The notes below the pieces were generated by a model. The model searched no databases. It saw only the letters and a program-made list of their open reading frames with translations, and was not told the origin of the DNA. 30,281 nucleotides of DNA, taken from the IMG/VR virus record IMGVR_UViG_3300030419_005552, positions 1 to 30,281 of that record; one strand, written 5' to 3'. Positions 13,952 to 30,281 of the stretch are shown here, one piece after another (the first letter of the stretch is position 1; each line of letters opens with the position of its first letter). The translations under genes and the position numbers were made by a program. The DNA is from a virus.

Positions 13952-13991
13952 ATTAAACTGTATCCCTCTTATAACTAGATCGTTTATCCGT

Positions 13992-14002: not shown

Positions 14003-14005
14003 AAC

Positions 14006-14037: not shown

Positions 14038-14073
14038 AAAAGAAAAGAGAAACCAAATAATTGGTTTAACTGA

Positions 14074-15624: not shown

Positions 15625-15723
15625 ATTATAAAACCCTCCATTATTATAGTTTTTTTATGGAATAAGCAAAGCACACCAATCCAAATTTGATCTAAATCAG
15701 TTAAATCGACGCACTCGCTCGCT

Positions 15724-15733
15724 TATAAATAGT
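15724..15733. promoter_or_regulatory. Recurrent intergenic motif (TATAAATAGT)
   Basis: Plus-strand tataaatagt in the 130-nt gap upstream of the 516-aa fibre gene, about 100 nt from the ATG. The rest of the gap shows no gene and no further clear structure. Confidence 0.4.
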
Positions 15734-15754
15734 ATACCTAAACGTTGTATGCAA

Positions 15755-16516: not shown

Positions 16517-16555
16517 TCACTATTGTCTCCCATGTTTAATTAGAAGACACAAATA

Positions 16556-17266: not shown

Positions 17267-17272
17267 GAGTTA

Positions 17273-17704
17273 TTAAACTCCCGTATATGAACCGGTAAAG
17301 TTCTTATCTGTTCTTCTTGCGTCAATCGAGGTAAGGCCGGCTACTACGTCAAATGGGTTGCGACCATGAGTGGCGCCAGATCTAAGGCACCAGATACTGG
17401 AAACCTTCATCTCAAAACGTTCTGATTTGCCATATCCGTTGGAGCCGCTCGCGTCAACTGTAAAATTAAACGCTTCGCTTCCTGTGCCAGCTACGTCTAA
17501 TCCTTCGTGCGAAAACGCCACTTTGAGGGGCGAGCCGGCTTTGTTAATAATCTGAAACCATCTTGTCACATATGGAAAACTAACTTCTATTGCGGTGTTT
17601 GCCTCAACGCTGCCGGTTGCCCATGGGCGGCCACTAACTTGATAGGAGCCTACGTTATTAATGCCGACTTGTACCGGGAAGCCTGCAGGGTTGTGATTAG
17701 CCAT
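17273..17704 (-). CDS. Probable virion protein of unknown role (143 aa)
   Basis: The product starts MANHNPAGFPVQVGINNVGS. I chose the ATG at 17704, 9 nt after GGAG, over an in-frame TTG at 17719. The sequence is compact and beta-rich with VSGRPWATGSVEANTAIEVS, FPYVTRWFQIINKAGS, FEMKVSSIWCLRSG and VVAGLTSIDARR. It has no repeats, signal peptide or TM segment. I do not recognise a named family, although similar short proteins next to fibre genes are familiar from marine phages. It heads the fibre block and has a TATAAATAGT motif 32 nt upstream, so it probably marks the start of a separate late transcription unit. A capsid decoration or fibre-anchor role is possible. Confidence 0.7.
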   Translation of the reverse strand: MANHNPAGFPVQVGINNVGSYQVSGRPWATGSVEANTAIEVSFPYVTRWFQIINKAGSPLKVAFSHEGLDVAGTGSEAFNFTVDASGSNGYGKSERFEMKVSSIWCLRSGATHGRNPFDVVAGLTSIDARRTDKNFTGSYTGV

Positions 17705-17735
17705 TTCTAAAATCTCCAAATTCTAAAGTATTCAT

Positions 17736-17747: not shown

Positions 17748-17996
17748 TTATTTTTTTCTTCGGCGCTTTTCTTGCGCCCTCTTTCTTTTTAATTCTCTAC
17801 GGGCTCGATCTCGGAGCGCGCGGATGTGTTTTTCCTTTTTAGCAACTGATGGTTTTTTATACCTACTCCTCTCTCTATATTTCTCTACGATTCTTTCTTT
17901 TTTACATTTCTTGATAAATCTTCTAATCATTCTTTCATGATTTCCACGACACTCTCTAGAAGTAACAAGTACGTGGGCGCCCTTTTTGTTTTTCAT
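17748..17996 (-). CDS. rpsU: Phage-encoded ribosomal protein bS21-like
   Basis: The 82-aa, very basic product matches the small-subunit ribosomal protein bS21. The core RMIRRFIKKCKKERIVEKY, then RERSRYKKPSVAKKEKHI, lines up with the E. coli bS21 core ([20 protein letters not shown], then REFYEKPTTERKRAK). The C-terminus is an Arg/Lys tail, and the length compares with 71 aa in E. coli. bS21 sits near the mRNA 5' end and anti-Shine-Dalgarno region of the 30S subunit, and phage copies are known in marine viruses. An AAGGA site precedes the ATG, 8 nt after the preceding gene stop. It is the last gene of the overlapping run. Binding to host ribosomes to favour phage mRNA is the usual proposal and is inference here. 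Confidence 0.82.
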   Translation of the reverse strand: MKNKKGAHVLVTSRECRGNHERMIRRFIKKCKKERIVEKYRERSRYKKPSVAKKEKHIRALRDRARRELKRKRAQEKRRRKK

Positions 17997-18004
17997 CTTA
18001 TTCC

Positions 18005-18406
18005 TTATTTAATTGCCTGCCAAATTTGTGACGCATTGCCGACCAGCGAACTAATATCTACGCCAGCATCCGAAGCGCTACCCAGATCGACAGATCCCGC
18101 AGAAGCTTGTGATGATTGTGGGCCAGCCATGGGGGTTGTATCTTCAAACAAGTCAACACCGTTGTAGGCATCTGCCCCTATTGCGCTCATCAATTTCTCT
18201 CTTTGTTCTCTAAGTTTCTTCGTGTTCACCGCAGGTTGTGACACGGGGGCTCTTTGTGGCCTCGACACCTCGGTAACTACACTCCCTTGCATGCCCGCTA
18301 CAACCTCAGAGACAACATTGGATAGAACACCCTCTTCCAACAAGACCTCGTTTACGCACTCTTTTATAAGCGGCTTAAGCAAGCTCTTTAATTCATTCTT
18401 TTTCAT
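18005..18406 (-). CDS. Small protein with capsid-targeting-like N-terminus
   Basis: The 133-aa product starts MKKNELKSLLKPLIKECVNE and continues VLLEEGVLSN, a Lys/Glu helix with L-x-E and I-x-E sites. The rest is Ser/Ala/Gln/Val-rich and probably mostly disordered, with one charged helix (TKKLREQREKLMSAIGADAY) near residues 63-82. It overlaps the end of the prohead protease gene by 14 nt. The N-terminal helix resembles the tags on genes at 24837, 25634, 27716 and 28401. By place and tag it could be a small core or internal head protein like T4 gp67/gp68, but no sequence similarity to those can be claimed. Confidence 0.7.
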   Translation of the reverse strand: MKKNELKSLLKPLIKECVNEVLLEEGVLSNVVSEVVAGMQGSVVTEVSRPQRAPVSQPAVNTKKLREQREKLMSAIGADAYNGVDLFEDTTPMAGPQSSQASAGSVDLGSASDAGVDISSLVGNASQIWQAIK

Positions 18407-19004
18407 TCAAAACCTCATTTAAAAGTCTATTAATTCTATCAGCTTTTGTAAAAATATTTGGGGTGCTCATGTCTTTTGCTTCTTTCATCATAAAAGCACC
18501 GGGGGTGGATGGTTCAGAAACAAAATCAAAACAAATCAATTGAAAATCGTCCTCCACCACTGTGTTGCCCTGGGATTCTGACACTGAACCCATGCCTCTA
18601 GATGAGATGCCAAGTTTAACACCAGACTCAACTAAAGATCTTAAAATATTTCCAGACGGCGTGTTTAAGACTTGGACTTTGCCCATAACATCATTACCTT
18701 CAGTCCATATATCAGTGACCATGTGCGATGCATTCTTAAGATTAATAACAGAATCATCCGGATGATCTAATTCTCCGAGGGCGCGCCGTTCGTTTACTAG
18801 CTTTTTGTAAGTCTCAACTTCTCTCATTAAGACTCTTGCTGGATAAACTCGGCCATTACCATTGCGCGTATCTGCCTTTTGCATGATGCCTGACAGGATC
18901 ATGCCGCCTTCTGCAACAAATCTTTTTTCGGCTTCAGTGAGCAAATCTTGGCAAACGCCGCCCTCACAAAGCTCAAAATATTCTCTTAAAAGTACCTTTC
19001 CCAT
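18393..19004 (-). CDS. Prohead core protease, gp21-like (peptidase S80 type)
   Basis: This serine protease sits in the prohead core and, after shell assembly, cuts scaffold, capsid protein and internal proteins at (L/I)-x-E sites. The 203-aa product (T4 gp21 is 212 aa) has the expected GIMQKADTRNGNGRVYP segment (39-55), GELDHP with the probable catalytic His81, and LGISSRGMGSV with the probable catalytic Ser134 or Ser135. FDFVSEPSTPGAFM (159-172) is also typical. The C-terminus, RLLNEVLNEKE, has two L-x-E sites and may be trimmed by self-cleavage. An AGGATC site precedes the ATG. It lies downstream of the portal as in T4, but a fibre block separates it from the scaffold. Confidence 0.92.
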   Translation of the reverse strand: MGKVLLREYFELCEGGVCQDLLTEAEKRFVAEGGMILSGIMQKADTRNGNGRVYPARVLMREVETYKKLVNERRALGELDHPDDSVINLKNASHMVTDIWTEGNDVMGKVQVLNTPSGNILRSLVESGVKLGISSRGMGSVSESQGNTVVEDDFQLICFDFVSEPSTPGAFMMKEAKDMSTPNIFTKADRINRLLNEVLNEKE

Positions 19005-19028
19005 AGCTAAGATCCTTTACAGCAGTGC

Positions 19029-19358
19029 CTAACTGGCTGAAGCATCCACTTTTGTGTCCAGATGTTTGTGTTCATGTTTAATTCCTTCATCTCCAAATAC
19101 CATGTTTAAAATATATGACGTGCCCGAAGACAACCAACCTAAAAGAAAGAAATTTGCAACAGTTACGTCATAGCTAAATAGTTCTGTAAACGGAGAAAGT
19201 AGCATTAAAAACCAGCCTACATGGAATCCCATGCACATTGGACACTTAAATAACTCTCCGAGCCTTCCATTGGACGGCCTTATTTTATTGAATAGTTTGC
19301 CGTATACTATAATTTGTGTGAGGCCATAGGCACTCAATATAAATGTTAATAATTCCAT
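19029..19358 (-). CDS. DUF1360-like membrane protein
   Basis: The 109-aa product starts MELLTFILSAYGLTQIIVYG. The ATG at 19358 has an AGGAG site 6-7 nt upstream and avoids a long overlap, so I prefer it to the longer frame. Hydrophobic segments at about 3-20, 45-60 and 64-88 suggest three membrane helices. Between the first and second lies ELFKCPMCMGFHVGWF with Cys39 and Cys42, the CPxCxGF signature I associate with DUF1360. The hydrophilic C-terminus is His/Lys/Asp-rich. It is an inner membrane protein of unknown function, and it is odd to find it between head genes. A role in lysis control or in prohead assembly on the membrane is speculation. Confidence 0.7.
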   Translation of the reverse strand: MELLTFILSAYGLTQIIVYGKLFNKIRPSNGRLGELFKCPMCMGFHVGWFLMLLSPFTELFSYDVTVANFFLLGWLSSGTSYILNMVFGDEGIKHEHKHLDTKVDASAS

Positions 19359-19365
19359 TATTCTC

Positions 19366-19875
19366 CTAATTAATTCCGGTTCTATCGTCAAACACTGTAG
19401 CGATTGCATCTGCTGCCAACCCTGTTTCCAATGAGCCCTGATTGGCCAATTTCACCATAGCCTTTAAATCAGCCGATGAAGCCGGCGGATCTTGAATTTT
19501 TAAAGCCAGCAAAGCCATTGCTAATACAGGACCGCCATATTTTGCCACTTTTTGTCCTGCGGGTGTGCTAAAAAATTTTTGTACCGCAATATCTCCTTGG
19601 ATATATGTTTGCAGCATTTTATCTGCAAGCGCTCCTTCACTAATGTTTTCTTCAAGTGCGGCGCCTTTGAGTGCTTTTACCGTCGCTGAGATCTCTGGAT
19701 CTTTTAAAAGACTCTGGAGCAGCGCCTGTAGTTGATTACTATTGGCCGATGCCGCCTTTTTGATCAAATCGGTGGCCTCTTCAGGTTCATCTTTTATCTT
19801 CTCTATTGTTTCTTGTTCTTCAGAGTTATTTTGCTCATCAAGAAACTTGCTCCAATTTTCAAATATAGTTTCCAT
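19366..19875 (-). CDS. Unknown protein with FENW-type N-terminal tag
   Basis: The 169-aa product starts METIFENWSKFLDEQNN. I prefer the ATG at 19875 to a GTG at 19881 because it places FENW at residues 5-8, as in two other genes (29481 and 29915). After the tag comes an acidic linker (SEEQETIEKIKDEPEEA), then helical Ala/Leu-rich sequence (SANSNQLQALLQSLLKDPEI, AALEENISEGALADKM) and a hydrophobic stretch PVLAMALLALKIQ at about 122-134 that may be membrane-associated or buried. L-D-E14 would be a cut site for the gp21-type protease 20 bp-scale genes downstream. I do not recognise a family. It may be an internal head protein. Confidence 0.7.
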   Translation of the reverse strand: METIFENWSKFLDEQNNSEEQETIEKIKDEPEEATDLIKKAASANSNQLQALLQSLLKDPEISATVKALKGAALEENISEGALADKMLQTYIQGDIAVQKFFSTPAGQKVAKYGGPVLAMALLALKIQDPPASSADLKAMVKLANQGSLETGLAADAIATVFDDRTGIN

Positions 19876-19877
19876 AA

Positions 19878-20456
19878 TCACATTGTAAACATATAAGACA
19901 TTGAATATGGGTCTCTTAAATAGCCCGGGCGGATTGAGCCTTGCTTAGTCTTCTCTGGCACCTCTCCGAGTTCTGTGGAGTCCGCCTTATCTGGTTCGAG
20001 CAGTTCGTCTTCCGTGCCGGCTATGTGAGCCTCAAGGTGCTCAAAGTAGGGACGTTCCTCGTCGATAAATTTAGAAATATTCAATAAAGCCATTTTAGTG
20101 GAATTTATTTTATCGCTATAAGATTCCTCAAGCATTCCTTCAATAGCGCCATGGAAAGAGCCGCCTTGAATTGATTCAGCAACAATAATTCCCTTTTTTC
20201 TTAAAAAAGAAAACAATCTATTTTGAGCACCGTATACCATGTCAGTCATGGTTTCTTTTGGAAATGCTGTAACTTTGTTGTTTTTTGACGACAGCACAAT
20301 ATCAATATCTGCGTGATCAAAAATCATTAAATCCCCGTTAAGGCTTTTGCGAATATTAAGCTCCAGTCTTATCGTCGGAATAGGCTTGCGCGCAGCATCT
20401 CCAACTTTAATCTTAATAGGTTCATTTTTTGGTATTAATCTAACCAACACTGACAT
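19878..20456 (-). CDS. Conserved-looking protein of unknown function (192 aa)
   Basis: The product starts MSVLVRLIPKNEPIKIKVGD. The N-terminal half is mixed alpha/beta: PTIRLELNIRKSLNGDLMIF, HADIDIVLSSKNNKVTAFPK. The middle is helical and contains YGAQNRLFSFLRKKGIIVAE and GGSFHGAIEGMLEESY, and the C-terminus is acidic, ending RDPYSMSYMFTM. It overlaps the preceding gene by 17 nt, and its stop overlaps a GTG of the next gene (GTGA), so it is translationally coupled. I do not recognise the family. In T4 the genes between portal and protease are 67 and 68 (small core proteins). This one occupies that region but shows no visible resemblance. Confidence 0.75.
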   Translation of the reverse strand: MSVLVRLIPKNEPIKIKVGDAARKPIPTIRLELNIRKSLNGDLMIFDHADIDIVLSSKNNKVTAFPKETMTDMVYGAQNRLFSFLRKKGIIVAESIQGGSFHGAIEGMLEESYSDKINSTKMALLNISKFIDEERPYFEHLEAHIAGTEDELLEPDKADSTELGEVPEKTKQGSIRPGYLRDPYSMSYMFTM

Positions 20457-21270
20457 CAGAATATATTTCCTTTACTAATTTTTGGGTCTTTAAGACAGTC
20501 AGCAGCAATGTCTCGCTGACGGTCTCCTTAGAATAACTATCAAGTTTGGAAATAACGTTATCAGTTTTTTCCATCATAGATTCATCTGATTTAATCTCTT
20601 GTGTATTTTTGGCTTCTTTCAATTTATGTTTTAGTCTGCCGATTTCTTCGTTTAAAAACATTTTTAATTCGATAGAGTTATCAACAAATGAAGTGATGTA
20701 GTGCATTAAAAGTTGTTTTTGCTCTTTAAGCAGATCGTCTCCATACTTTTCGTTAAACTTTTTAACGAAAGAATTGTAAACAATATTATCAATTGGCACC
20801 ATCTCTTTTTGCTCTTGCTCTTTTGAAACCATAAACTCTATCATTTGATTTTCAAGAACTATTTGCTGTTTAGGAGAAACTTCACCAAACATCTGAGATA
20901 TTGTGGCTAAAGTCTTGTAATTTGGTACAAAATTATTAAACGTTTCAGGGCCCAAATCTTTATTTATATCTTTTATTAAGCTAGATTGCTGCTTAAACAG
21001 CCCTTCTGGATCAATCAATCTCTTAGATAGCTTTACTTCTTTCATTATCTTTTCGCTAGTTTCCTTTGTGGCGCCACGAGTTTCATACAAAGAACGATAG
21101 CAATCTAGATCTTTCTTTAAAGCAGAAAATGGTTCAAAATATTGTTTTATAATTTTAACTATTTTGTCTTTTCTTTCTATATCATTCTTAATGATTGCGT
21201 TTGTCGCTTCCTTGATAAGCGCCTCATAAACAAAAGCGGTATTTCTTTTTTTATTATGTTTAATTTTCAT
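20440..21270 (-). CDS. Helical protein of unknown function after portal (276 aa)
   Basis: The product starts MKIKHNKKRNTAFVYEALIK and is almost wholly helical and charged, with Lys/Glu-rich stretches throughout (KIIKQYFEPFSALKKDLDCY, RLKHKLKEAKNTQEIKSDES). A start of the type KHNKKRNTAFxYEAL is familiar from marine T4-like phages next to the portal, but I know no function for it. It overlaps the portal gene by 11 nt and the next gene by 17 nt. There is no signal peptide or TM segment. The position between portal and protease suggests a role in head assembly, such as portal-core contact, but this is inference. Confidence 0.75.
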   Translation of the reverse strand: MKIKHNKKRNTAFVYEALIKEATNAIIKNDIERKDKIVKIIKQYFEPFSALKKDLDCYRSLYETRGATKETSEKIMKEVKLSKRLIDPEGLFKQQSSLIKDINKDLGPETFNNFVPNYKTLATISQMFGEVSPKQQIVLENQMIEFMVSKEQEQKEMVPIDNIVYNSFVKKFNEKYGDDLLKEQKQLLMHYITSFVDNSIELKMFLNEEIGRLKHKLKEAKNTQEIKSDESMMEKTDNVISKLDSYSKETVSETLLLTVLKTQKLVKEIYSDVSVG

Positions 21271-23248
21271 TACTTTGCTCCGTTATAAGATCTTTATCTT
21301 TAGATTCCAAATCTCTAATTAAATCCGTGATTGATTCATCTATGGCGATAAGATTATTTTCCTCTTGTTGTTCGTTCAATGAATAAGTAGGTTGCTCAGT
21401 TGGATAAATACTTTCTGAAGTTGGCACAAACGCTTTCGATAAGCTCTTTAGGCCATCGGCGTAGCCCGGGAATGTTGTTCTGGGCGTGTTTCTGGACTTC
21501 TCAGAGTTATATTGCGAGGCATTTGAGCGCTTGCGAGCGCCAGCATCTCGACGGTCGACTTTCTTTGGTTTGTAGACCTTTCCTTTAGAGCCGGGCGTGA
21601 GTCTAGGCGAGAATCTAGATCCGGGTGGAGCAGTAAGCAGCGCTGATTCATCTTCTGGTGGTGCTTCTTCCGCGCCTTCGGGCCCCTCATCGGGCAATTC
21701 AAGATCACCGCCCAAGTCGTCGCCAAGATCTCCGCCGAGATCTCCACCCAAATCTCCACCGAGGCCACCGGTTTCGCCGGCGGCCGCCTGTTCTGCAACT
21801 TGTTGTAGGGAAGCATCTTGCTTGCGGTCATAGAACATCTCTCTTTGGTTGCGTACAAAGTCTTCGTGTGAAATACCAAAAATATTTTCAGCAACCCAGC
21901 GACGTGAGAAGTAGCCCTCCGTGGCCGCTGCAGCGATATCGAACTTAGTCTTCCAATGTTCAATTTCTTGCATTTCAGCAATCTTGGAAGGGTTATTAAG
22001 GGAAAGTTTAAAATTAATTAAATCATCGCCACGAAAGCCAAGAGTGTAAAGATGAATGATTCCAATTTTCTCTAACTCATGTATAACCGTTCTTTGCAAT
22101 CTTTGAATTGTTCGCGCAAAACGAATATCCTTTTGTGCAAGAGTTGTCTTGTCCTCCATTGCTCCTTCGCCCATAGTTAGATACGATTGGGGAATTTTTA
22201 ATGCAGAAAAAAGCTTGTCACGCAAATACTTGATATCATCAATTGCCGTAATGTTTTGGGCTCCGGCTAGTGACTCAATTGAAGTGGCAGAGCCAGCACG
22301 AACAGGCAAGAAATAATCCTCTTCAATTGACATCGGATTATATCGCAAATCAATTCTGCCTGAATCTGGATCAACCACTGTGTGTCTCTTTAGTTGGGAC
22401 ACAATTTTCTGCATATATTGCTCTACATCTTGAGGCGGGATTGCCCCTACGTCAATCTTAAAAACGCGGCGTTCAGAAGATCTAATAACTCGATAAGCCA
22501 TCATGGCATCTTCCATAAGAGTAAGCTGTCTCCAGATTCTTCTAGCTGCCTCAAGAACTGATGTACCATACGGGGAATACTTATCGTTACCTAAGACACG
22601 AAAATGTGCAACCTGCCAATTTTCAAATGTCATTCCGGCTGAATTCCATTGATATTGAATATAGTTTGGGTTTGTTGCGTCTAATCCCTCAAGGCGCTCA
22701 ACTTCCTGTATGGGCAGCGCTATTGAAGACTGTACTCCATGCTTGTCGTCAATATCTAAATATAATATGAAGTCTCCATATTTACAAAGTGTTCTGCACC
22801 ACCCAAATAAGTTGTATTCAACATTAAGCACATTTGAGTAAAGCAAGTCCAGAACGGCCTTAATCTCCTCATTGGAACACTTAATGTTAAGCATGGGGCG
22901 CAAGTCCGAAAACGTTGTCATTTCATCTGCATAAATGTCTAGGGAAGATGCAATCTCCGGCATATACTCCATCTGATCAAAATCAACATATCGCTCAGAG
23001 CGACGTTGATTGGCGATAGCGTTGGCGGCAATATTGTCTAGCGGATTATAACTCTGCTTTTTAAACTGCTGTCCGGATGGGTTTTTAAATCTGGATGAAA
23101 ACTTATCCAGATGCTGACGCCTAATTCTTCTTCCCGATTGAGAACGATAGTTAATAATCGGACCAGAGAACAGCCTTGTGAGTGCTTTGAACAACTCAGA
23201 CTGTCTATTGATTGGGTTTTTTCCTTGTCTTGGGTTTTTTGGTGCCAT
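21260..23248 (-). CDS. Portal vertex protein, gp20-like
   Basis: This is the dodecameric portal through which DNA enters the head. The 662-aa product starts MAPKNPRQGKNPINRQSELF. Characteristic segments are RYVDFDQMEYMPEIASSLDI and YADEMTTFSDLRPM in the N-terminal third, DKYSPYGTSVLEAARRIWRQ and LTLMEDAMMAYRVIRSSERR in the middle (clip and stem), and LFSALKIPQSYLTMGEGAME with DKTTLAQKDIRFARTIQRLQ after it. These match gp20 proteins of T4-like phages. It is longer than T4 gp20 (524 aa) because of a C-terminal tail from about residue 485: a GGDLGG repeat, an acidic Pro-rich stretch and a Lys/Arg-rich stretch. It lies 8 nt after the terminase gene, as in many T4-like phages. Confidence 0.93.
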   Translation of the reverse strand: MAPKNPRQGKNPINRQSELFKALTRLFSGPIINYRSQSGRRIRRQHLDKFSSRFKNPSGQQFKKQSYNPLDNIAANAIANQRRSERYVDFDQMEYMPEIASSLDIYADEMTTFSDLRPMLNIKCSNEEIKAVLDLLYSNVLNVEYNLFGWCRTLCKYGDFILYLDIDDKHGVQSSIALPIQEVERLEGLDATNPNYIQYQWNSAGMTFENWQVAHFRVLGNDKYSPYGTSVLEAARRIWRQLTLMEDAMMAYRVIRSSERRVFKIDVGAIPPQDVEQYMQKIVSQLKRHTVVDPDSGRIDLRYNPMSIEEDYFLPVRAGSATSIESLAGAQNITAIDDIKYLRDKLFSALKIPQSYLTMGEGAMEDKTTLAQKDIRFARTIQRLQRTVIHELEKIGIIHLYTLGFRGDDLINFKLSLNNPSKIAEMQEIEHWKTKFDIAAAATEGYFSRRWVAENIFGISHEDFVRNQREMFYDRKQDASLQQVAEQAAAGETGGLGGDLGGDLGGDLGDDLGGDLELPDEGPEGAEEAPPEDESALLTAPPGSRFSPRLTPGSKGKVYKPKKVDRRDAGARKRSNASQYNSEKSRNTPRTTFPGYADGLKSLSKAFVPTSESIYPTEQPTYSLNEQQEENNLIAIDESITDLIRDLESKDKDLITEQSNEN
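21700..21785 (-). repeat. Short tandem repeat in portal C-terminal tail (GGDL units)
   Basis: Plus-strand units of about 12 nt such as ccgagatctcca, ccaagatctccg and cccaaatctcca repeat five to six times and encode GGDLGGDLGGDLGDDL. The register is 4 codons. Slippage could change copy number. Confidence 0.75.
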
Positions 23249-23256
23249 TTATAATC

Positions 23257-24840
23257 TCACTTTATAATCCACATGAACTCGTCATAGGTTTTTTTAGCTT
23301 CATCTATTTTATCAAGAATATTATCCTTTTTGTAGCCTATTTGTCCTTTAACTTGTGTGTTCATTGTTGTTCTTGTTGTCATGATTGCATCGACAAAGGC
23401 CTTTTGATAATTCAAATCTCTCGCATTTGCCTGCAGTGCTGTGTCTCTTACCCAACAGGCGATAGCTAACGACATGATGAGGTCATCATTATATCCTTTC
23501 ATCGCCTGTGGCTTTCCGTTTCTCCAAATAAAAGTTTTCATCTCGTTGATAGTGCGAGAAGAATATACTTTAATTAGTTTATTTCTGATAAACTCTTCCA
23601 ATTTCGCTACGATAAGGGGTCGAGTCTTCATGGTAGTAGTAAACCCGGGCACAGCCGACGTTCTATTTTCTGCCTGATACTGTTCGATGTATTCATGAGT
23701 CGACTTTATAGAGAAGTAAATATTTGGATATGCGTGATCAACTAATTTGTCTAATACAGAATAACCTATATTGTTGTTTTCTACAACAAGCATAGCATTT
23801 CCAAATTCTCTACCCACTTGGTTAAGCATGTTGGCGTACATATCGAGTGTTGGTTTACCCTGATACTCTCCGATAATCTCTAAGGTCTCTAATTTTACAA
23901 TATGAAAAGCCGAATTATCAGCACCGTCGCCGCGGGCAACATCAGCAACCATCAAATAGTTGCACGTTGGATCATATTCTTCCCAAATCCAAAAATTACG
24001 ATCGAACCCTGTTCTATATTTTGGCTCGCGGATGCTACCTAATAGCCATTCCATATCGTCTGGATCTATGACAGTCTCGCCGGAAGTATTGAAATTACAT
24101 GCAAGCTCTTGAGCAATTTGTCGCTTTGACATGTTCTTGGTTTCTTTCTTGTACCACTCCTCGTCTCGATCTGGATGCACATCCCACGGGAGAGTTGTTA
24201 TGTTAAAGTTATTGGCGCCTGATTGAGCATCTACACAAGTTTTGTGAAACCAATTACCAACACCGTTTGGAGTAGACAATGCAATGCAGCGACCACCGGT
24301 TGATAGCGTGGGGTATAGACCGGTCCATAATTCTTCCAAGCCTTCGATATGTGCGGCCTCGTCAAGCACCAAAAGAGACAGCGCTTCTGAACGACCAGCA
24401 TCACCCGATGTGGATGCGGCCTTAATAGAAGAACCATTCGACAACTCAAAAGAAGTTCGGTTATCGACTGAAATCTCGGCAATCTTTATCCAATCTGGCA
24501 AGTTTCTCATGATGCTTTTAACTTTTTTAACCAAGTTTCCGGCAGTCGCAAATTTAGTTGCCATTACCAAAATTGCTTTATCACGATGGAATAGCATCAT
24601 CCACACAATATATCCAGCAGTAATCGTTGATATGCCAAGCTGGCGGGCCTTTAAAATGACATTAAATCGATAATCATTGAAGTCCGTTAAGAGATCGTCT
24701 TGAAAATCATACGTATCAAAAGGTATTAAGCCGTGTAGTGGGTGGGATATTCTAGCGTAGTTTTTAAGAAAATAAGCGGGATCTCTCCCGCATTTGACTA
24801 TCTCTTTAACTTGCTGTTTTTTATCTAATTGAAAACTCAT
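23257..24840 (-). CDS. Terminase large subunit, gp17-like (ATPase and nuclease)
   Basis: This is the DNA-packaging motor, with an N-terminal ATPase and a C-terminal RNase H-fold nuclease. The 527-aa product has a Walker A-like KARQLGIST (64-72), Walker B LLVLDEAA (156-163) and a coupling LSTPNG (189-194). Nuclease acids are Asp300 in MVADVARGDGAD, Glu354 in VVENNNIGYSV and Asp452/453 in GYNDDLIMSLAIA. The Walker A lacks the usual GK[ST] lysine; Lys64 or Arg66 may serve. Length is close to T4 gp17 (610 aa, whose extra length is terminal). Its ATG overlaps the stop of a small tagged gene (ATGA). No obvious small terminase is visible in the window. Confidence 0.95.
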   Translation of the reverse strand: MSFQLDKKQQVKEIVKCGRDPAYFLKNYARISHPLHGLIPFDTYDFQDDLLTDFNDYRFNVILKARQLGISTITAGYIVWMMLFHRDKAILVMATKFATAGNLVKKVKSIMRNLPDWIKIAEISVDNRTSFELSNGSSIKAASTSGDAGRSEALSLLVLDEAAHIEGLEELWTGLYPTLSTGGRCIALSTPNGVGNWFHKTCVDAQSGANNFNITTLPWDVHPDRDEEWYKKETKNMSKRQIAQELACNFNTSGETVIDPDDMEWLLGSIREPKYRTGFDRNFWIWEEYDPTCNYLMVADVARGDGADNSAFHIVKLETLEIIGEYQGKPTLDMYANMLNQVGREFGNAMLVVENNNIGYSVLDKLVDHAYPNIYFSIKSTHEYIEQYQAENRTSAVPGFTTTMKTRPLIVAKLEEFIRNKLIKVYSSRTINEMKTFIWRNGKPQAMKGYNDDLIMSLAIACWVRDTALQANARDLNYQKAFVDAIMTTRTTMNTQVKGQIGYKKDNILDKIDEAKKTYDEFMWIIK

Positions 24841-25091
24841 ACATCTTTCAAGGCCGCTATCACTTCTTCTCTGTTGGCCAAGTCGCCTTCGCCATCCAGC
24901 ACAATCATCTCTTCCATGCCATCTGCATGCATCATGTCAATTAATTCTGAATCTGACATTTTCTCAAAACCGTGAGGATCTAATACATTATACATCTCGT
25001 CTTCACCGCCCATATCGTGGTAGTGCCCCTCAAGGGCAGCAGCAACCTCTTCTTTGATAATTTGCTTTAAACGGGCGGTAGAGATCTTCAC
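24837..25091 (-). CDS. Small acidic protein with capsid-targeting-like N-terminus
   Basis: The 84-aa product starts at GTG 25091: VKISTARLKQIIKEEVAAAL. I prefer this to a longer frame from 25163 because GTGA overlaps the stop of the preceding gene and the N-terminus then matches the tags of the genes at 28401, 27716 and 25634. After the tag come acidic, Met-rich segments (HYHDMGGEDEMYNVLDPHGF, LIDMMHADGMEEMIVLDGEG), with no known domain. Its stop overlaps the terminase start. Its place directly before the large terminase is where T4 has the small terminase gene 16, but size and composition do not support that identity. Confidence 0.65.
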   Translation of the reverse strand: MKISTARLKQIIKEEVAAALEGHYHDMGGEDEMYNVLDPHGFEKMSDSELIDMMHADGMEEMIVLDGEGDLANREEVIAALKDV

Positions 25092-25627
25092 TGTGACTTC
25101 TTCCTTGTGTCGTTCTGAGGTCTCTTTCCTCCAAGATCTCCTTGAGAAATAAAGTCTCTCCATTTTGAATCCAGCCTATCTCCCGATTCGGCACCCACAG
25201 CCATATCTTCATCTAATCCGGAAATCTTATAATGCATCTTAGCTGTTACCCAAGACCTTACTCTGGAGGAATTTTCGACCCGCACATCGACCTCACCTTC
25301 CTTGGTTAGAGTCACGGACGAGCCTGTGATCTTTTTGTATTCTTTTTTCAAGAAGGAGGCAATGTCGGCAATCCTTTGTTCAACTTCTGCTTCGAAGCCG
25401 TTTGCATAAACTTCTTTTAGCTGAACCTCTGAGTGATATCCAACACACATCATGTTTCCGTAAAATTTGACGTTAAACCCGTCTGCAACTCTCTTATCGA
25501 GAAGGGGATTGCCCTCTTCTCTTTGCAGTCCAGCAGTGACCGGTTCTCCATTTTCGTCAAGGGCACCGTCATAAGCGTTGGCAGCTGCCTGCGATAAACC
25601 TTGAATTATTTCATATACTGTAGCCAT
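25088..25627 (-). CDS. Unknown protein, probably virion- or packaging-associated (179 aa)
   Basis: The product starts MATVYEIIQGLSQAAANAYD after AAGGA. It continues GALDENGEPVTAGLQREEG and then a mixed alpha/beta domain with VADGFNVKFYGNMMCVGYHS, EVYANGFEAEVEQRIADIAS, FLKKEYKKITGSSVTLTKEG and WVTAKMHYKISGLDEDM. It has no signal, TM or repeat. The sequence style is familiar from marine phages, where it lies near terminase and portal, but I know no function. The C-terminus (QNDTRKKSQ) is hydrophilic. The gene sits 6 nt after the preceding stop and is coupled to the next by GTGA. Confidence 0.75.
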   Translation of the reverse strand: MATVYEIIQGLSQAAANAYDGALDENGEPVTAGLQREEGNPLLDKRVADGFNVKFYGNMMCVGYHSEVQLKEVYANGFEAEVEQRIADIASFLKKEYKKITGSSVTLTKEGEVDVRVENSSRVRSWVTAKMHYKISGLDEDMAVGAESGDRLDSKWRDFISQGDLGGKRPQNDTRKKSQ

Positions 25628-25633
25628 TTTTAT

Positions 25634-26224
25634 TTATCCTTTAATTTTTTTATATTCTAAGTGGTGCTTCACGGAAGATAGGTAGTCGGCAGCTTTTGTT
25701 ATTTTAGCCTGCACCCACCCATCAAGCTGTTCGCCATCTTGAATCATTTGCTCTAGTTCGGTCGCATAGTTTGCGGCCTTATATAAATCTGATTTTGCCA
25801 TTGATGCTTCGTGATCGTCTGCGCAGCCATGGCCTTGGTCGATAGGCATTGGGGCGGCGCCGCATGCCTCTTGTACTGCTTGAGCTTGCTGGGCTTGTTG
25901 GGCAGCCTGAGTCACCTGAGAAGCTGTTGATTTTTGTAATATGACTAAAACCCTTTGCAGTAAAGCTCGATTTCTCATCAAATCAACGCCGGGAGTTGCC
26001 GCCAAGTCGGAAAGAAATTTCTCGAATTGATCAACCAGATTTTTTTCAGCATTAGTCAACTCATCTCCAGCAGACCTAATTCTCTTAACTGCGTCAGTGG
26101 CACGTTGGGCGGTTGACTTTGAGCCAGATTTAAGCGTTGGGGCGCCGGAAGTGTCCATTTGCTGATCTTGTTCGCGCAAAACTTCTAAAACTACATCTTT
26201 AAACTTTTGTTTTGTTATCTTCAT
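25634..26224 (-). CDS. Unknown helical protein with N-terminal tag (196 aa)
   Basis: The product starts MKITKQKFKDVVLEVLREQD. I prefer the ATG at 26224, 6 nt after GGAG, to the longer frame from 26320, whose extra N-terminus lies in the preceding gene. After the tag comes a linker (TSGAPTLKSGSKST), a helical domain and a Gln/Ala-rich helix (QVTQAAQQAQQAQAVQEACG). The C-terminal KAANYATELEQMIQDGEQLD plus GWVQAKITKAADYLSSVKHH is a segment I have seen recur at the end of unrelated marine phage proteins. LREQ or VLEV could be protease sites. The function is unknown; an internal head protein is possible. Confidence 0.7.
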   Translation of the reverse strand: MKITKQKFKDVVLEVLREQDQQMDTSGAPTLKSGSKSTAQRATDAVKRIRSAGDELTNAEKNLVDQFEKFLSDLAATPGVDLMRNRALLQRVLVILQKSTASQVTQAAQQAQQAQAVQEACGAAPMPIDQGHGCADDHEASMAKSDLYKAANYATELEQMIQDGEQLDGWVQAKITKAADYLSSVKHHLEYKKIKG

Positions 26225-26597
26225 TTGGTCTCCAGCCTCCCAGCCATCTCTCTTCTCTCCCCTCAACATGTTGAATGTAACACTTACTGCAACAATCAAA
26301 CTTGATGAGACAAACATCATCCATGGATTTCTTTGGAAAATTTCCGCAGATAGGACAACTTTTTAAAGATTCTCTATTAAGTAGTTTTTTTGCTACCTTT
26401 ATACCATTTAAATCAATTTTCTCGTTTGAGGCGCTAGCTTTATTTTGTTTCTCATACAGTGCTTGCATTTGTTCAAGATAAATTCGCTCTTTAGATTCGT
26501 CCCAATTCGACTTAGGATTTACTATTGCTTCTTCTCCATATTTTTCAGATATGGCCTTCTCAAACGCGGCTATTTTATTTAGTTCTTTGTTTTTCAT
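26199..26597 (-). CDS. Small zinc-ribbon-like protein (132 aa)
   Basis: The product starts MKNKELNKIAAFEKAISEKY. The N-terminal half is a charged helix. The C-terminal half has LLNRESLKSCPICGNF (Cys81, Cys84) and FDCCSKCYIQHVEGREERW (Cys102/103, Cys106), followed by LGGWRPNED, so one zinc ribbon with CxxC...CxxC spacing is likely. Proteins with this CYIQxVEGREERW ending are familiar from marine T4-like phages but have no assigned function to my knowledge. It overlaps the gene before by 23 nt and the gene after by 26 nt. Confidence 0.72.
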   Translation of the reverse strand: MKNKELNKIAAFEKAISEKYGEEAIVNPKSNWDESKERIYLEQMQALYEKQNKASASNEKIDLNGIKVAKKLLNRESLKSCPICGNFPKKSMDDVCLIKFDCCSKCYIQHVEGREERWLGGWRPNEDNKTKV

Positions 26598-27009
26598 TTA
26601 TGGCCTTATATACCCCATATGAGCCAGCAGTACCAAGAACAATTCCGCCGGCAAAATACAACCACTTGTATCGAGGTGATGTTTTCTTTAAAGCATTTGC
26701 TAAAAGATCAATTTCCTTATCCTTTTGCATTATAAACAAATCGTACTCATCTGTTAAGGCCTTGTGTTCTATTTTCAAATTTTCTATCTCAAACCGATGC
26801 TTTTCTTGAAGCTTATGTGTCTCGTAATCAATTCTTATCTGACAAGCATAGGCCGCAATGTCATAGTTTGATAAGACTGTCGAGATCGCATACTCGTCGA
26901 ACAAGACCCCCTCAAACGGTGCTGGCTGTTTATACTCCAAAAAAGTAAACTTAGCAGGCTCAGTAGCGTTTGCAGACAAGGATGCCATAAGTAAAAATTT
27001 AAGGAACAT
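26575..27009 (-). CDS. Exported coiled-coil protein with C-terminal membrane anchor (spanin-like candidate)
   Basis: The 144-aa product has a signal peptide at 1-15 (MFLKFLLMASLSANA, probable cut after ANA), a periplasmic region with a charged coiled coil (about 60-108: HKLQEKHRFEIENLKIEHKA) and a C-terminal membrane helix KWLYFAGGIVLGTAGSYGVY (115-134) with a basic cytoplasmic tail. There is no lipobox cysteine, so it is not a standard outer-membrane o-spanin. It overlaps the i-spanin-like gene by 11 nt, which places it in a membrane/lysis block. It may be an inner-membrane partner of that protein. The role is inferred. Confidence 0.65.
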   Translation of the reverse strand: MFLKFLLMASLSANATEPAKFTFLEYKQPAPFEGVLFDEYAISTVLSNYDIAAYACQIRIDYETHKLQEKHRFEIENLKIEHKALTDEYDLFIMQKDKEIDLLANALKKTSPRYKWLYFAGGIVLGTAGSYGVYKAINEKQRTK

Positions 27010-27382
27010 ATTGAATCCCGAAAGTTTCTTCTATATCTTTAATTAGAGCCTCTCTATCTCGGTTAAACTTATTAGAGTACTCTCCCTTTTTGTCTCTTCT
27101 TAATTGGTCGATCATTTCAAGAGCATCTTCATAATCTTCTTCAATGGCCGCAAGAGACTCTAAATGACTCTCCATTAATAAGCGCTTTTCTTGTATCTCT
27201 TGTTTGTGTATTTCTTTAAGCCCCTCAATTTGTGCTTCGTGAGATTGCGCCTGTGTCTCATATGCTTTTTGCATTAACTTGTAGTCATGTCTACTCTTCA
27301 TGGCCACAACGACTAAAAGCAATATTATTAATATTGCCTTCCAGTTCTTCAATGCAAATTGTAATATCTTCTGTTTAAGCAT
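26999..27382 (-). CDS. Inner-membrane coiled-coil protein, i-spanin-like
   Basis: The 127-aa product starts MLKQKILQFALKNWKAILII. I take the ATG at 27382, which overlaps the holin-like gene by 8 nt. One N-terminal membrane helix (about 15-32: AILIILLLVVVAM) is followed by a long charged coiled coil (38-112) and a C-terminus ending TFGIQYVP. This topology (N-in, periplasmic coiled coil) is that of Rz-type i-spanins, which disrupt the outer membrane in Gram-negative lysis. No sequence motif proves it. Context supports it: a holin-like gene precedes and an exported coiled-coil protein follows. Confidence 0.6.
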   Translation of the reverse strand: MLKQKILQFALKNWKAILIILLLVVVAMKSRHDYKLMQKAYETQAQSHEAQIEGLKEIHKQEIQEKRLLMESHLESLAAIEEDYEDALEMIDQLRRDKKGEYSNKFNRDREALIKDIEETFGIQYVP

Positions 27383-27575
27383 TGTGCCCCCGCAATCTAG
27401 CGATGCCATCAATAACGGTTTGTCCGCCTATGTAGATTGCCGAGATAATCACCCAATCTTCGCTGGTAACATGACCAGCTAAGGTGAGGCCAGTTGCTGT
27501 AAGCCATACCATTAGCTTGCGTGAAGTAAGTTTCGATAGCCATGTATCCAAAAACGCTTGTGCTTTTTCCATCAT
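27375..27575 (-). CDS. Holin-like small membrane protein (66 aa)
   Basis: The product starts MMEKAQAFLDTWLSKLTSRK, with an amphipathic N-terminal helix, two hydrophobic segments (about 20-35 and 41-58: WLTATGLTLAGHV and WVIISAIYIGGQTVIDGIA) and a short charged tail. Size, topology and the GGQTVIDGIARL ending fit small phage holins that make lesions in the inner membrane. The ATG overlaps the TGA of the reading frame before it (ATGA), 6-7 nt after GGGAG. It is followed by the spanin-like gene. No endolysin is visible in the window, so the lysis set would be completed elsewhere. Confidence 0.65.
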   Translation of the reverse strand: MMEKAQAFLDTWLSKLTSRKLMVWLTATGLTLAGHVTSEDWVIISAIYIGGQTVIDGIARLRGHNA

Positions 27576-27715
27576 TCTTTACTCCCATTTTGTCTCTTTA
27601 CGCTTTTAACGCATTTTTCATATTTCTCTTTATCTTCTCGACCAACAGATGCTGTGCAAATTGCCCAAGGATTGTTTTCTTTCTCCTCAAGCTCACCTGA
27701 GCCCTCTTTGTCTGG
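27572..27715 (-). other. Open frame beyond an in-frame TGA, carrying a conserved-looking NNPWAICTASVGRED module
   Basis: Reading on in the same frame after the TGA (27716-27718) of the preceding gene gives 47 more codons and a TGA that overlaps the holin-like ATG. The peptide has an acidic linker (PDKEGSGELEEKE) and then NNPWAICTASVGREDKEKYE plus KCVKSVKRQNGSKE. I recognise the PWAICTASVGRED..KYEKCV module from the C-termini of other marine phage proteins. No ATG, GTG or TTG lies in this frame after the TGA, so it has no ordinary start of its own. It is a readthrough extension, a recent nonsense mutation or sequence error, or a decaying remnant. The ATGA coupling argues that this frame was translated up to its end. 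Confidence 0.6.
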
Positions 27716-28411
27716 TCAAGTTTCTTCTTCGTTCATCCTAAGTGCACGACGAAGATCATCTTGGTTGTTTAAGTGTTTGTATTTTTCCCAGACATCGGTT
27801 TGTTCTCCGGGAGATAGCTGCGGTAGTAGCTCTTTCACATCGTCGATCGTCAGGTTTCCCTCGCCATACCTTGGGCGTGGGCGCCCCATAAATTCTTGCA
27901 GCTCTTCTCTAATAATCTCCATCAACTCTTCTCTAAAGCCCACCTGTGGGCGTCCTTCTGCGCCGGGGGAATACAGCGTCTCTGGTGGTTCTTCTTCAGG
28001 CTCACCCAATTCAACACCCGGGATCTTCTCAAATACTGCCTGAAATAAGTCGGCCACCTCTTCTGGCGGCAACCCTTGAATCAGGTCCATAAGTTGATCT
28101 TCCAAAGGTGGGCCTGCGCGATCTTGGAAGCCACTAACATCTCGCTCTGGAGCGTCATCTGACGGGATATCCGAAGGTCCAAATGGCATTGTATCATCAG
28201 CGCCAGTATGTGGTTTTTTCATGGGGGCAGTGTCACCACCCTTAGTTATGTGGCGAGTGGCGCCTCTTTCTTCGGGAGATTGATATTTGTCTCCCAGTAT
28301 CTTCTTGAGCAACTCTTCTGCAGCATCGTCGCCGCGGTGGTCCCAATAGCCTTCAGATATCAGGTATTCCTCAACAATAAGGCGATATAGCTCATTTTGA
28401 TCAATTTTCAT
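27716..28411 (-). CDS. Acidic protein with N-terminal tag, ends at an in-frame TGA
   Basis: The 231-aa product starts MKIDQNELYRLIVEEYLISE (ATG at 28411, AGGAG upstream, 11-nt overlap with the preceding gene). The longer frame from 28516 lies inside the preceding gene and is not needed. After the tag come GYWDHRGDDAAEELLKKILG, a disordered Pro/Asp/Glu-rich middle (FGPSDIPSDDAPERDVSGFQ), helical acidic segments (LEDQLMDLIQGLPPEEVADL, REELMEIIREELQEFMGR) and RRALRMNEEET before TGA. The frame continues 47 codons beyond the stop. I do not recognise a domain. The tag resembles those at 28401 and 24837. Confidence 0.7.
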   Translation of the reverse strand: MKIDQNELYRLIVEEYLISEGYWDHRGDDAAEELLKKILGDKYQSPEERGATRHITKGGDTAPMKKPHTGADDTMPFGPSDIPSDDAPERDVSGFQDRAGPPLEDQLMDLIQGLPPEEVADLFQAVFEKIPGVELGEPEEEPPETLYSPGAEGRPQVGFREELMEIIREELQEFMGRPRPRYGEGNLTIDDVKELLPQLSPGEQTDVWEKYKHLNNQDDLRRALRMNEEET

Positions 28412-28661
28412 TTTCTGTTTCTCCTGAATCATTTTCATCAACAGTAATTCTAGTCGGAGTCGTTTGCATCCTTCCGGTCGCTTTCTGGCTAAGGCCGATC
28501 GAGAATGCGTCTTCACCAGTTATTGCAGACGTAAGATAGTCAATACTTACATCTAGACTGTCAATCTTAGATGCAAGATTATCAATTGCTGATCTTAGAG
28601 CGGGATCTGCTGCTATCTCCTCTTTGATAATTTGTTTAAGTTGTGACTTGGTGACCTTCAT
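28401..28661 (-). CDS. Small protein with capsid-targeting-like N-terminus (86 aa)
   Basis: The product starts MKVTKSQLKQIIKEEIAADP. This N-terminus is nearly the same as that of the gene at 24837 (VKISTARLKQIIKEEVAAAL). A helical stretch follows (ALRSAIDNLASKIDSLDVSI) and the C-terminus is acidic and disordered (TVDENDSGETENEN). It is joined to the preceding gene by ATGA and overlaps the next by 11 nt. The function is unknown. I-K-E14 or I-K-E-E15 would be a cut site for the gp21-type protease if it is packaged in the prohead. Confidence 0.7.
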   Translation of the reverse strand: MKVTKSQLKQIIKEEIAADPALRSAIDNLASKIDSLDVSIDYLTSAITGEDAFSIGLSQKATGRMQTTPTRITVDENDSGETENEN

Positions 28662-28966
28662 TTTACGAACCTCTGAAATTTAGCGTTAAGGGCGCCATCG
28701 ATCTTAACAAATTGTTCCATAGAATCTGACACAGATTCCTTGTTTGCTGGGCCGGTATACCAGTCTTCAAATTTTTCAAGAGCATCGGTGCTGTCTATGA
28801 GTTTAGCGCCGATTCCAAGATCGCCACACACCTCAAGGAAAAGCTCTTCAATCGAACGTTCTTCTTCGACCACACACGGCGTTGGCTCTTCTTCAACCAA
28901 AGTAAGCTTGGGAGAAGTGGACGTTTTTCCTACTAGCCAATTCCAAAGTATTCTTAACCAATTCAT
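28658..28966 (-). CDS. Small unknown protein (102 aa)
   Basis: The product starts MNWLRILWNWLVGKTSTSPK. The N-terminal 14 residues are Trp/Leu-rich and could be an amphipathic membrane-binding or packing helix. An acidic stretch follows (VEEEPTPCVVEEERSIEELF) and then a mixed domain with LEVCGDLGIGAKLIDSTDAL and EKFEDWYTGPANKESVSDSM. It is coupled on both sides by ATGA overlaps (28963-28966 and 28658-28661). It lacks the two common N-terminal tags. I do not recognise a family. Confidence 0.7.
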   Translation of the reverse strand: MNWLRILWNWLVGKTSTSPKLTLVEEEPTPCVVEEERSIEELFLEVCGDLGIGAKLIDSTDALEKFEDWYTGPANKESVSDSMEQFVKIDGALNAKFQRFVK

Positions 28967-29481
28967 TGTTCACTGTTCTCCTTTAATGCTTGGTGTAATG
29001 CTTGTATAACTCCACCGTCAAGGTGGGAATATTGTGGAGGATCTTTTGCGGCATCCTCGGCTGCCTCTTGCAGCATTTGTGCCAGCTTTCTTTTAATTTG
29101 GCTGATCATCATGCTACCGTATCCGGGGATCATAACTTCTACATCGTCCGGTGGTGTTACGTTGCCCGGGCGCTCCCATGCGGGGAGGCGGGCTTCACTC
29201 ATTTCTTGTCTGCGTGCTAAATCTTGATACATTTCTTCTTCATCTATATAGCCCATGGTTTCACCATTTTCAAGAGTGACAACAGCGATATGTTTGCCGT
29301 CTGTAGTTTTAGCAAACATCACTTGCACATTGAATTTATCGGCTAAGTCTTCCATAGCTTCTTTTTCAGCCATTTCAGGCTCTACATAATCTTCACCAGT
29401 ATCAATATCTGCAACAGCGCGGCCGGGAACGTATTCTGCTTCGTTTAAAGACTTTCGCCAATTTTCAAATAGTTTCTTCAT
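28963..29481 (-). CDS. Unknown protein with FENW-type N-terminal tag (172 aa)
   Basis: The product starts MKKLFENWRKSLNEAEYVPG. The ATG at 29481 overlaps the stop of the gene before it (ATGA), so the longer frame from 29550 is rejected. After the tag come an acidic linker and a small beta domain (KFNVQVMFAKTTDGKHIAVV, TLENGETMGYIDEEEMYQDL), followed by a helical C-terminus (SQIKRKLAQMLQEAAEDAAK). L-N-E14|A would be a good site for the gp21-type protease. The first 8 residues are identical to the next gene upstream in the operon, and the DNA at this junction is a 48-bp repeat. Confidence 0.72.
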   Translation of the reverse strand: MKKLFENWRKSLNEAEYVPGRAVADIDTGEDYVEPEMAEKEAMEDLADKFNVQVMFAKTTDGKHIAVVTLENGETMGYIDEEEMYQDLARRQEMSEARLPAWERPGNVTPPDDVEVMIPGYGSMMISQIKRKLAQMLQEAAEDAAKDPPQYSHLDGGVIQALHQALKENSEQ

Positions 29482-29505
29482 GTTGCTAAACCATTCATGC
29501 TTAGT
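29458..29505. repeat. 48-bp direct repeat, copy A, at a gene junction
   Basis: This copy spans the 3' end of the gene at 29478-29915 and the 5' end of the gene at 28963-29481. It matches copy B (29892-29939) at 46 of 48 positions, with differences at plus-strand a/t (29490/29924) and g/a (29499/29933). The shared part encodes LSMNGLAT-stop and, in the other frame, MKKLFENW. Confidence 0.9.
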
Positions 29506-29915
29506 TCTGCTATTGCTCTGTTTCCGTGGCCGGCTTTCATTTGGATCCAAGCATTATTAATAAACACATTCTTTTCTTCGTGGGATCTGTTATTAAATTT
29601 TCCTATTAAGTTTCTTATTCTGCGAAAACTTCTTCCGGGGAAAAGCTCATTAAGTGTTGCAACTAGCTCAGATTTCTCCATCTCATCGTTGGCCAAACCA
29701 GATAACAGAGCTATTACATCTTGTGCTTGTTCGTTAGGCAAGTGACCCAATCTTCCGTGAAATTCTCTCTCAAATTTACGATAGTCGTCCGACAGGTGTG
29801 CCGATGGGTGAACCCATTTTGGCTTCGGTGGATCTGGGCGCTCAAACTGTTCATCGCCCCCAATGTCATCTTGAGCGCTCAAATATTTATTCCAATTTTC
29901 AAATAGTTTCTTCAT
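29478..29915 (-). CDS. Unknown protein with FENW-type N-terminal tag (145 aa)
   Basis: The product starts MKKLFENWNKYLSAQDDIGG. The ATG at 29915 overlaps the stop of the preceding gene (ATGA). The N-terminal tag is followed by an acidic Pro-rich linker (EQFERPDPPKPKWVHPSAHL) and a helical domain (SDDYRKFEREFHGRLGHLPN, DEMEKSELVATLNELFPGRS, FRRIRNLIGKFNNRSHEEKN). It ends with AIAELSMNGLAT, almost the same end (IAILSMNGLAT) as the gene before it, although the rest of the two proteins differs. The function is unknown. The gene lies exactly between the two copies of a 48-bp repeat. Confidence 0.72.
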   Translation of the reverse strand: MKKLFENWNKYLSAQDDIGGDEQFERPDPPKPKWVHPSAHLSDDYRKFEREFHGRLGHLPNEQAQDVIALLSGLANDEMEKSELVATLNELFPGRSFRRIRNLIGKFNNRSHEEKNVFINNAWIQMKAGHGNRAIAELSMNGLAT

Positions 29916-29939
29916 GTTGCTAATCCATTCATACTTAGT
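29892..29939. repeat. 48-bp direct repeat, copy B, at a gene junction
   Basis: Second copy of the junction repeat, spanning the 3' end of the gene at 29912-30281 and the 5' end of the gene at 29478-29915. The copies are 434 bp apart, start to start, so recombination between them would remove one gene and keep an intact junction. Confidence 0.9.
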
Positions 29940-30281
29940 ATCGCAATCAATCCGGGCACGTTCTTCCGGACATAAACGCCAGAGAATAGTGTCTCGCATC
30001 GACCGCCGACATAAGCGATTGCCGACTCAATATTCTTGCTGACTTTAGGGTCAGCTACCATCTCTTCTGACACAACCAACACTAACGAACCTGCAGCGGC
30101 TTTGCCTTTCGGCGGAGGACATGCAGAACGATTCATGCAGTTATGAAGGATCACCGATCCAAGCTTAGCAGTGTTTGGGTCCTTTATCATAGTCGAACCC
30201 ATAAAAGCACGACCGTCATTGCCCAAACATGTTTCCAAATCTTTGCTATCAAAAGATTGGATCGGTGAATCCTCAGTGGAG
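29912..30281 (-). CDS. Unknown protein, 5' end outside window
   Basis: The frame is open to the right edge; 122 residues are visible. Reading from the edge it contains STEDSPIQSFDSKDLETCLG, DPNTAKLGSVILHNCMNRSA, CPPPKGKAAAGSLVLVVSEE and IESAIAYVGGRCETLFSGVY, and ends IAILSMNGLAT. A TTG at 30238 is in frame but is not needed as a start. Four Cys are spread through the sequence with no zinc-finger spacing. I do not recognise a family. Its end is in the 48-bp repeat and its stop overlaps the next ATG (ATGA). Confidence 0.65.
   Translation of the reverse strand, partial: STEDSPIQSFDSKDLETCLGNDGRAFMGSTMIKDPNTAKLGSVILHNCMNRSACPPPKGKAAAGSLVLVVSEEMVADPKVSKNIESAIAYVGGRCETLFSGVYVRKNVPGLIAILSMNGLAT

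Follow-up and report, generated by a model that had tools for sequence, protein, structure and literature searches.

Two N-terminal motifs on diverse phage proteins are probable capsid-targeting sequences of a T4-like phage

The virus record IMGVR_UViG_3300030419_005552 of IMG/VR, 30,281 bases long (hereafter, the window), carries its main genes on the minus strand, and several of these encode proteins that begin with one of two N-terminal motifs, tag A (MKITKSQLKQIIKEE) and tag B (MKLLLENWRKYLNE). Both motifs are very probably capsid-targeting sequences (CTSs) of a T4-like phage, and, as far as can be judged from sequence, the tagged proteins would be imported into the prohead, cleaved, and injected with the DNA. 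We conclude that tags A and B represent two new CTS classes with a very diverse repertoire, including kinase, zeta-toxin, Nudix, and acetyltransferase domains. The first-pass annotation of this DNA had proposed two versions of a T4-type tag on unrelated proteins, and the proposal is now strongly supported by the position and register of the motifs, their co-occurrence with a protease, and the exchange of cargo. The features observed in this analysis are the confinement of tag B to N-termini, the fixed register, the modular and interchangeable cargo, and the protease co-occurrence, and the occurrence of the tags is much larger than had been reported.

Viral contigs were scanned for both tags, with totals that are lower bounds throughout. 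The tag-B pattern LxENWRx[FY]xxE was applied without requiring a start codon, and of the 112 matches listed from sampled viral contigs, 104 are preceded by ATG or GTG at a distance of exactly three codons; no match was found in a random set of viral contigs. The string KQIIKEE of tag A follows ATG or GTG by eight codons in 76 of 112 matches listed and by 6 or 10 codons in other phage groups, and about nine in ten of the tag-A matches listed are N-terminal. At residue 1, a location raised in the first-pass annotation, both tags are found repeatedly among uncultured T4-like phages. Among 84,980 bacterial and archaeal genomes (257 Gb), the tag-B pattern has 30 matches, of which 3 are N-terminal; two of these share one contig with seven tagged genes, plainly of the phage type, and the third is on a 7-kb contig that has a second tag. 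Four near-complete relatives of 195–203 kb (G001–G004), found via the protease, each contain 8–11 scored tag hits, mostly in arrays.

Beyond the tags, the proteins are strikingly diverse. The 474 tagged reading frames fall into at least 298 downstream clusters, 111 of them with tag B and 193 with tag A, and an alignment of 102 tag-B representatives confines conservation to residues 1–14, with W8 invariant, in agreement with the earlier remark that the proteins share nothing obvious downstream. In tag B, position 12 is L or I in 180 of 200 instances and E14 is present in 199 of 200 (the pattern allowed E or A), whereas in tag A, E14 occurs in all 211 register-14 instances, partly owing to how the pattern was built. 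These frequencies come from pattern-selected instances, such that invariance at the patterned positions is partly by construction, and the evidence free of this selection consists of the match positions and the exchange of cargo. According to Pfam, tag-B cargo includes protein kinase, zeta toxin, NUDIX, amidase, GNAT, HAD, cytidylyltransferase-like, and nucleotidyltransferase domains, as well as DUF192, DnaJ, HNH, and tRNA-ligase phosphodiesterase, while tag-A cargo includes pentapeptide repeats and Clp protease. Kinase, zeta toxin, NUDIX, GNAT, HAD, nucleotidyltransferase, amidase, and HNH cargo would be suited to early host takeover. The majority of cargo families have no Pfam name, and PDB sequence searches with three cargo proteins returned nothing significant.

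The design of the tags parallels that of the T4 CTS. The first ten residues of T4 IPIII suffice for import, substitutions at residues 4 and 7 affect targeting and those at 8 and 10 affect processing, and the protease gp21 cuts after L/I-x-E (PMC9026906). Both ipII and ipIII of T4 start with MKTYQEFIAE; the residues W8-[FY]11-[LIV]12-E14 of tag B have the spacing of Y4-F7-I8-E10 in IPII and IPIII, shifted by four, and L8-I11-I12-E14 of tag A have the same spacing with the same shift. Like the CTS of IPI, IPII, IPIII, and Alt, a class of about 10–19 residues, the tags are short N-terminal peptides on unrelated proteins, with the same hydrophobic spacing, a hydrophobic-x-Glu end, and a protease of the S77 family (gp21 in T4) encoded in the genome. 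They differ from it in sequence (MKLLLENWRKYLNE or MKITKSQLKQIIKEE versus MKTYQEFIAE), in being four residues longer, and in the hundreds of cargo clusters sampled; for T-even phages, at least 10 internal proteins have been reported (PMC12373910). With spacing the same and residues different from MKTYQEFIAE of T-even phages, the tags are too short to prove common descent. By analogy, the 14-residue amphipathic N-terminus would attach its protein to the prohead scaffold core, after which the S77 protease, as suggested by the motif and by T4, would cut after Glu14 (hydrophobic12-x13-Glu14) to free the mature protein in the head. The cargo would then stay with the DNA and be delivered to the next cell, as T4 internal proteins are.

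The strongest evidence for the targeting-tag interpretation is the exchange of cargo between tag classes. One and the same family stands behind tag A or tag B in L213/L112, L359/L137, L216/L126, and L256/L200, and the C-terminal domain of the window protein 28963–29481 is found behind tag A in L325 and L261. In other tagged proteins, for example, L011 and L272, the EGHYHDMGG domain of the window protein 24837–25091 makes up the C-terminal portion. A scan for the T4-type tag KTFK[QE]F-x-x-E placed 125 of 133 matches directly after a start codon, and 15.5% of the cargo behind this tag has homologs among the cargo of tags A and B, compared with 2.8% for genes without a tag on those contigs and 0.4% for random contigs. 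For instance, the same nucleotidyltransferase (1e-27) follows MKTFKEFFTE in L573 and MRKLFENWRRFLTE in L138, and the C-terminal domain of the window protein 25634–26224 is homologous to a protein of cyanophage S-H9-1 that starts with MKTFKQLREE. For some families, the link rests on matches that are short or of low complexity. Terminases and the family of the window gene 18005–18406, which appeared as untagged homologs of tag-A cargo, were treated as false hits of the motif and left out. Hence, domains carried behind a recognizable T4-type tag in one phage can be found behind tag A or B in another, and since the same domains follow all three, tags A and B are best regarded as variants of one function.

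A further line of evidence is provided by the protease. Of the tag-bearing contigs, 16 reach 140 kb, and every one of them encodes an S77 protease, as opposed to two of five random contigs of that size (a hand-worked Fisher estimate of about 0.008, softened by kinship among the contigs), and the same is true for all eight tag-A contigs in this size class.

In the window, the eight N-terminal strings named in the first-pass annotation are all encoded where it had placed them, on the minus strand. Seven hold up as tags and one, of the gene 18005–18406, does not. Starts were scored with position-specific matrices trained on other contigs, excluding the window and its close relatives, against a null of 187,517 internal positions, and gene calls were made with a simple caller. 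The three tag-B starts, at 19875, 29481, and 29915, score 20.6, 37.0, and 27.6, respectively, against a best null value of 8.3. The first belongs to a 169-aa protein (19366–19875, minus strand; METIFENWSKFLDE, tag at 19834–19875), orthologs of which keep the tag at only 27–51% identity, for example, MKTIMGRWDVFLTE and MKLILERWDSYLIFEE. It sits between the portal and protease genes, the place of gp67 and gp68 in T4, and probably belongs to the head core and not to the cargo. The other two are a 172-aa protein (28963–29481, minus strand; MKKLFENWRKSLNE) and a 145-aa protein (29478–29915, minus strand; MKKLFENWNKYLSA).

Of the tag-A proteins, that of 86 aa (28401–28661, minus strand; MKVTKSQLKQIIKEE) fits the consensus almost exactly in its tag string, although the gene caller omitted it as overlapping; its family occurs in at least 10 relatives, the majority with tag A starts. 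The 84-aa protein with a GTG start (24837–25091, minus strand; VKISTARLKQIIKEE), directly upstream of the terminase gene, scores 39.3 against best null values of 24.5, 16.6, and 11.5. Two others are divergent. The 231-aa protein (27716–28411, minus strand; MKIDQNELYRLIVEE / MKIDQNELYRLIVEEY) scores −0.1 (p about 1e-4), which is marginal alone, and its relatives carry clearer tags, MNITAARLKQIIVEEY and MKISRDKLYRLIVEEY; the 196-aa protein (25634–26224, minus strand; MKITKQKFKDVVLEVLRE / MKITKQKFKDVVLEV) scores 9.7 (p about 3e-5), and its relatives start with MKISKQKLKQIILEEFEILE and MKINKDKLKQIILEEFEMLE. The remaining N-terminus, MKKNELKSLLKPLIKE of a 133-aa head-cluster protein (18005–18406, minus strand, start at 18406), was rejected as a tag, given its background-like score and the conservation of the whole protein in relatives, where the family begins MKKxDLKxLIKPLVKECIHEVLLEEGLLSNVVSEV. 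The estimate of at least eight tagged and presumably loaded proteins holds for this phage type, as the four relatives with 8–11 scored tags illustrate, but the window itself has seven tags, one of them on the probable core protein.

Several observations weigh against the capsid-targeting interpretation. The co-occurrence with S77 compares 16 contigs with only five controls, some contigs share ancestry, and those below 140 kb often lack S77, for which fragmentation is a possible cause. The tag starting at 29915 has LSA in place of LxE and thus no Glu14; Ala at position 14 is found in 1 of 200 register-8 tag-B instances, and this protein may be imported without cleavage, as its sequence suggests; in T4, a tag with Asp at position 10 is reported to behave in this way. 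Letter by letter, the tags differ from the T4 CTS, and tag A is aliphatic where T4 is aromatic. In addition, codons 2 and 4–6 of tag B are more uniform than codon usage predicts, and partial spread at the DNA level may contribute. Finally, KQIIKEE also begins the large terminase (TerL) in another phage clade (L281, L294, L303, and L317), so the tag-A string alone is not specific.

This last point could be taken to mean that true targeting is limited to tag B, with tag A being a lysine-rich helix with which small phage proteins commonly begin and which is grouped with tag B by coincidence. The variable spacer length of tag A among phage groups and the two weak instances in the window point the same way, and tag A is indeed the weaker of the two. 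Nevertheless, such a division is unlikely, given that cargo families are common to A and B and also to A and T4-type tags, that S77 accompanies every large tag-A contig, and that E14 is constant in tag A, even if in part by pattern construction. Alternatively, the tags may direct proteins elsewhere, to the host membrane, the tail, or some assembly compartment that is not the head core; each forms an amphipathic N-terminal helix rich in lysine, which a membrane anchor can also be. We consider this highly improbable in view of the LxE conserved at a fixed position with the spacing of the T4 CTS, the cargo held in common with T4-type CTSs, the protease co-occurrence, and the tag on the protein encoded between portal and protease.

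The DNA around the tags offers a third alternative, namely, that the tags are leaders at the DNA level, a shared 5′ sequence, made up of the start region and a few codons, that spreads with cassettes by recombination and acts in expression rather than in the protein. A 26-bp repeat (ACTAAGTATGAATGGATTAGCAACAT) on the minus strand ends at the tag start codon of the gene starting at 29915 (copy 1, 29915–29940) and recurs with 24 of 26 positions identical before that starting at 29481 (copy 2, 29481–29506); the two genes have about 25 bp in common in front of the tag, and for this reason their tags are not independent. The repeat constitutes the 3′ terminus of a conserved gene (window 29912–30238) and recurs before later genes of the cargo array irrespective of their tag, and stops are frequent immediately upstream of it. 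It is also present at L012, L016, L034, L054, L056, L059, L064, L112, L213, L272, L275, and L287. Its presence before several genes, both tagged and untagged, favors a DNA leader, as does the sharing of codons 2 and 4–6 of tag B above expectation; codons 5–6 read CTT GAA in many loci. On the other hand, at codons 3, 7, and 9–14, unrelated families use identical codons about as often as expected from codon usage, while the amino acids are fixed, DNA upstream of tags generally lacks conservation, E14 and the register are kept, and tag A, tag B, and the T4-type tag differ in DNA yet share cargo families. Since the synonymous choice at most tag codons is close to what codon usage predicts, a DNA-level leader alone is very unlikely. 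The 26-bp repeat itself looks like an exchange junction; a role as a genome-wide promoter was dismissed, as outside the cargo array only scattered weak matches were found (16-bp core, up to 3 mismatches).

The targeting interpretation is set in a head-gene region of the T4 type, all on the minus strand. The gp21-type prohead protease (Peptidase_S77, 18393–19004) matches Pfam S77 at 3.8e-31, with a profile score of 108.6 bits against a cut-off of 27, and phrog_207 at 4e-56. Its N-terminus, MGKVLLREYFELCEGGVCQDLLTE, is tag-B-like and near-invariant in relatives, and the LLTE within it is a possible autocleavage site. The gp23-like major capsid protein (5618–7420; phrog_138, 5e-70) has a propeptide (...ALLSKWEKTGLLEG...RLLENQAKELLRE before S) whose motifs are kept in relatives and whose end, KELLRE before S, is a candidate cleavage site of the L-x-E type. 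Directly upstream of the capsid gene, at the position of gp22, lies a scaffold-like protein (7442–8650) with an N-terminus conserved in relatives, the presumed docking partner of the tags; the protein itself matched no family. The gp20-like portal protein (21260–23248; phrog_213, 2e-70) and the terminase large subunit (23257–24840; phrog_2, 3e-52) complete this set.

Other parts of the window are of separate interest. About 9 kb of repetitive SGS-rich fiber-like proteins (8728–17719, minus strand) lie between the protease cluster and the scaffold and capsid genes, unlike in T4. By the protease gene, a small basic protein (17748–17996, minus strand) gives a weak bS21 match (Pfam 5e-4, below the cut-off), and Microcystis phage Mel-JY01 has an annotated RpsU at the corresponding place. 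Three small proteins inside the cargo array (26575–27575, minus strand), two with membrane-type stretches, have the look of a lysis cassette; in T4, ipII and ipIII likewise adjoin the lysozyme gene e. Unlike the rest of the record, which is densely coding, positions 1–1720 show no reading frame that is both long and coherent; an assembly error or non-coding DNA may be the reason.

Other phages provide both parallels and differences. Mel-JY01 has the highest protease identity among named phages (55%) and the same head-gene order as the window, and no A or B tag was scored in its first 30.7 kb, the only part covered. The T4-type CTS of other phages (MKTFKQFIxE) resembles tags A and B in position and register and overlaps with them in cargo families, but its residues are distinct, and it was not found in the window. 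Cyanophage variants include MKTLKQFLKE in S-SM2 and MKTFKQLREE in S-H9-1. Variant tags near the terminase are also seen in cultured phages, such as MKKSQLRQIIKEA, MADNFNLRSFLTENKL, and MENFDLKKFLVENKL in Flavobacterium phage immuto (L513; host, Flavobacterium sp. LMO8), the 5′-nucleotidase of which is homologous to tag-B HAD cargo, and MKTLKQFLKE and MKSFNQFLSE among those of cyanophages L514–L516. A tblastn search of named phages with 20-residue tags gave nothing useful, which is not evidence of absence because queries so short are insensitive and may be masked as low-complexity. The head propeptides of phiKZ and SPN3US are likewise N-terminal and cut by a gp21-type protease after x-x-Glu, but they often exceed 100 residues, the phiKZ cleavage motif is S/A-x-E, and none of their tags has been reported to be widely shared by unrelated domains; in SPN3US, two diverged paralogs have identical N-termini (PMC5694885). 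MuF- or portal-fused effectors and polyvalent proteins load ADP-ribosyltransferases, Nudix, and 2H phosphoesterases into heads (PMC9503650); MuF and portal fusions rely on large structural domains, as opposed to a 14-residue, presumably removable tag. A literature search for the tag-A and T4-type strings gave no match, and LENWR or FENWR with "phage" retrieved unrelated text only. The concept is known from T4; within the literature searched, neither tag class seems to have been described before, nor does the spread of the two or the exchange of one for the other.

The proteins that tailed phages inject with their DNA are mostly unknown, the usual sources being proteomics or inference from fusion to head proteins. 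Provided that the tags do serve in targeting, candidate injected proteins can be picked directly from metagenomic genomes by a 14-residue pattern; many are of unknown function, and some have kinase, zeta-toxin, Nudix, acetyltransferase, nucleotidyltransferase, or nuclease domains. New tags would then also become available for loading proteins into phage heads. It is tempting to extend this, tentatively and at somewhat less than even odds, to a general code for import into the head (hydrophobic-x-x-hydrophobic-[LIV]-x-Glu, close to residue 1), with at least three interchangeable classes, through which T4-like phages would load and swap hundreds of effector families as gene cassettes, short repeated DNA junctions such as the 26-bp element and the tag-coding DNA serving as exchange points. 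Were such a code true, the injected repertoire of a phage would be readable directly from its genome.

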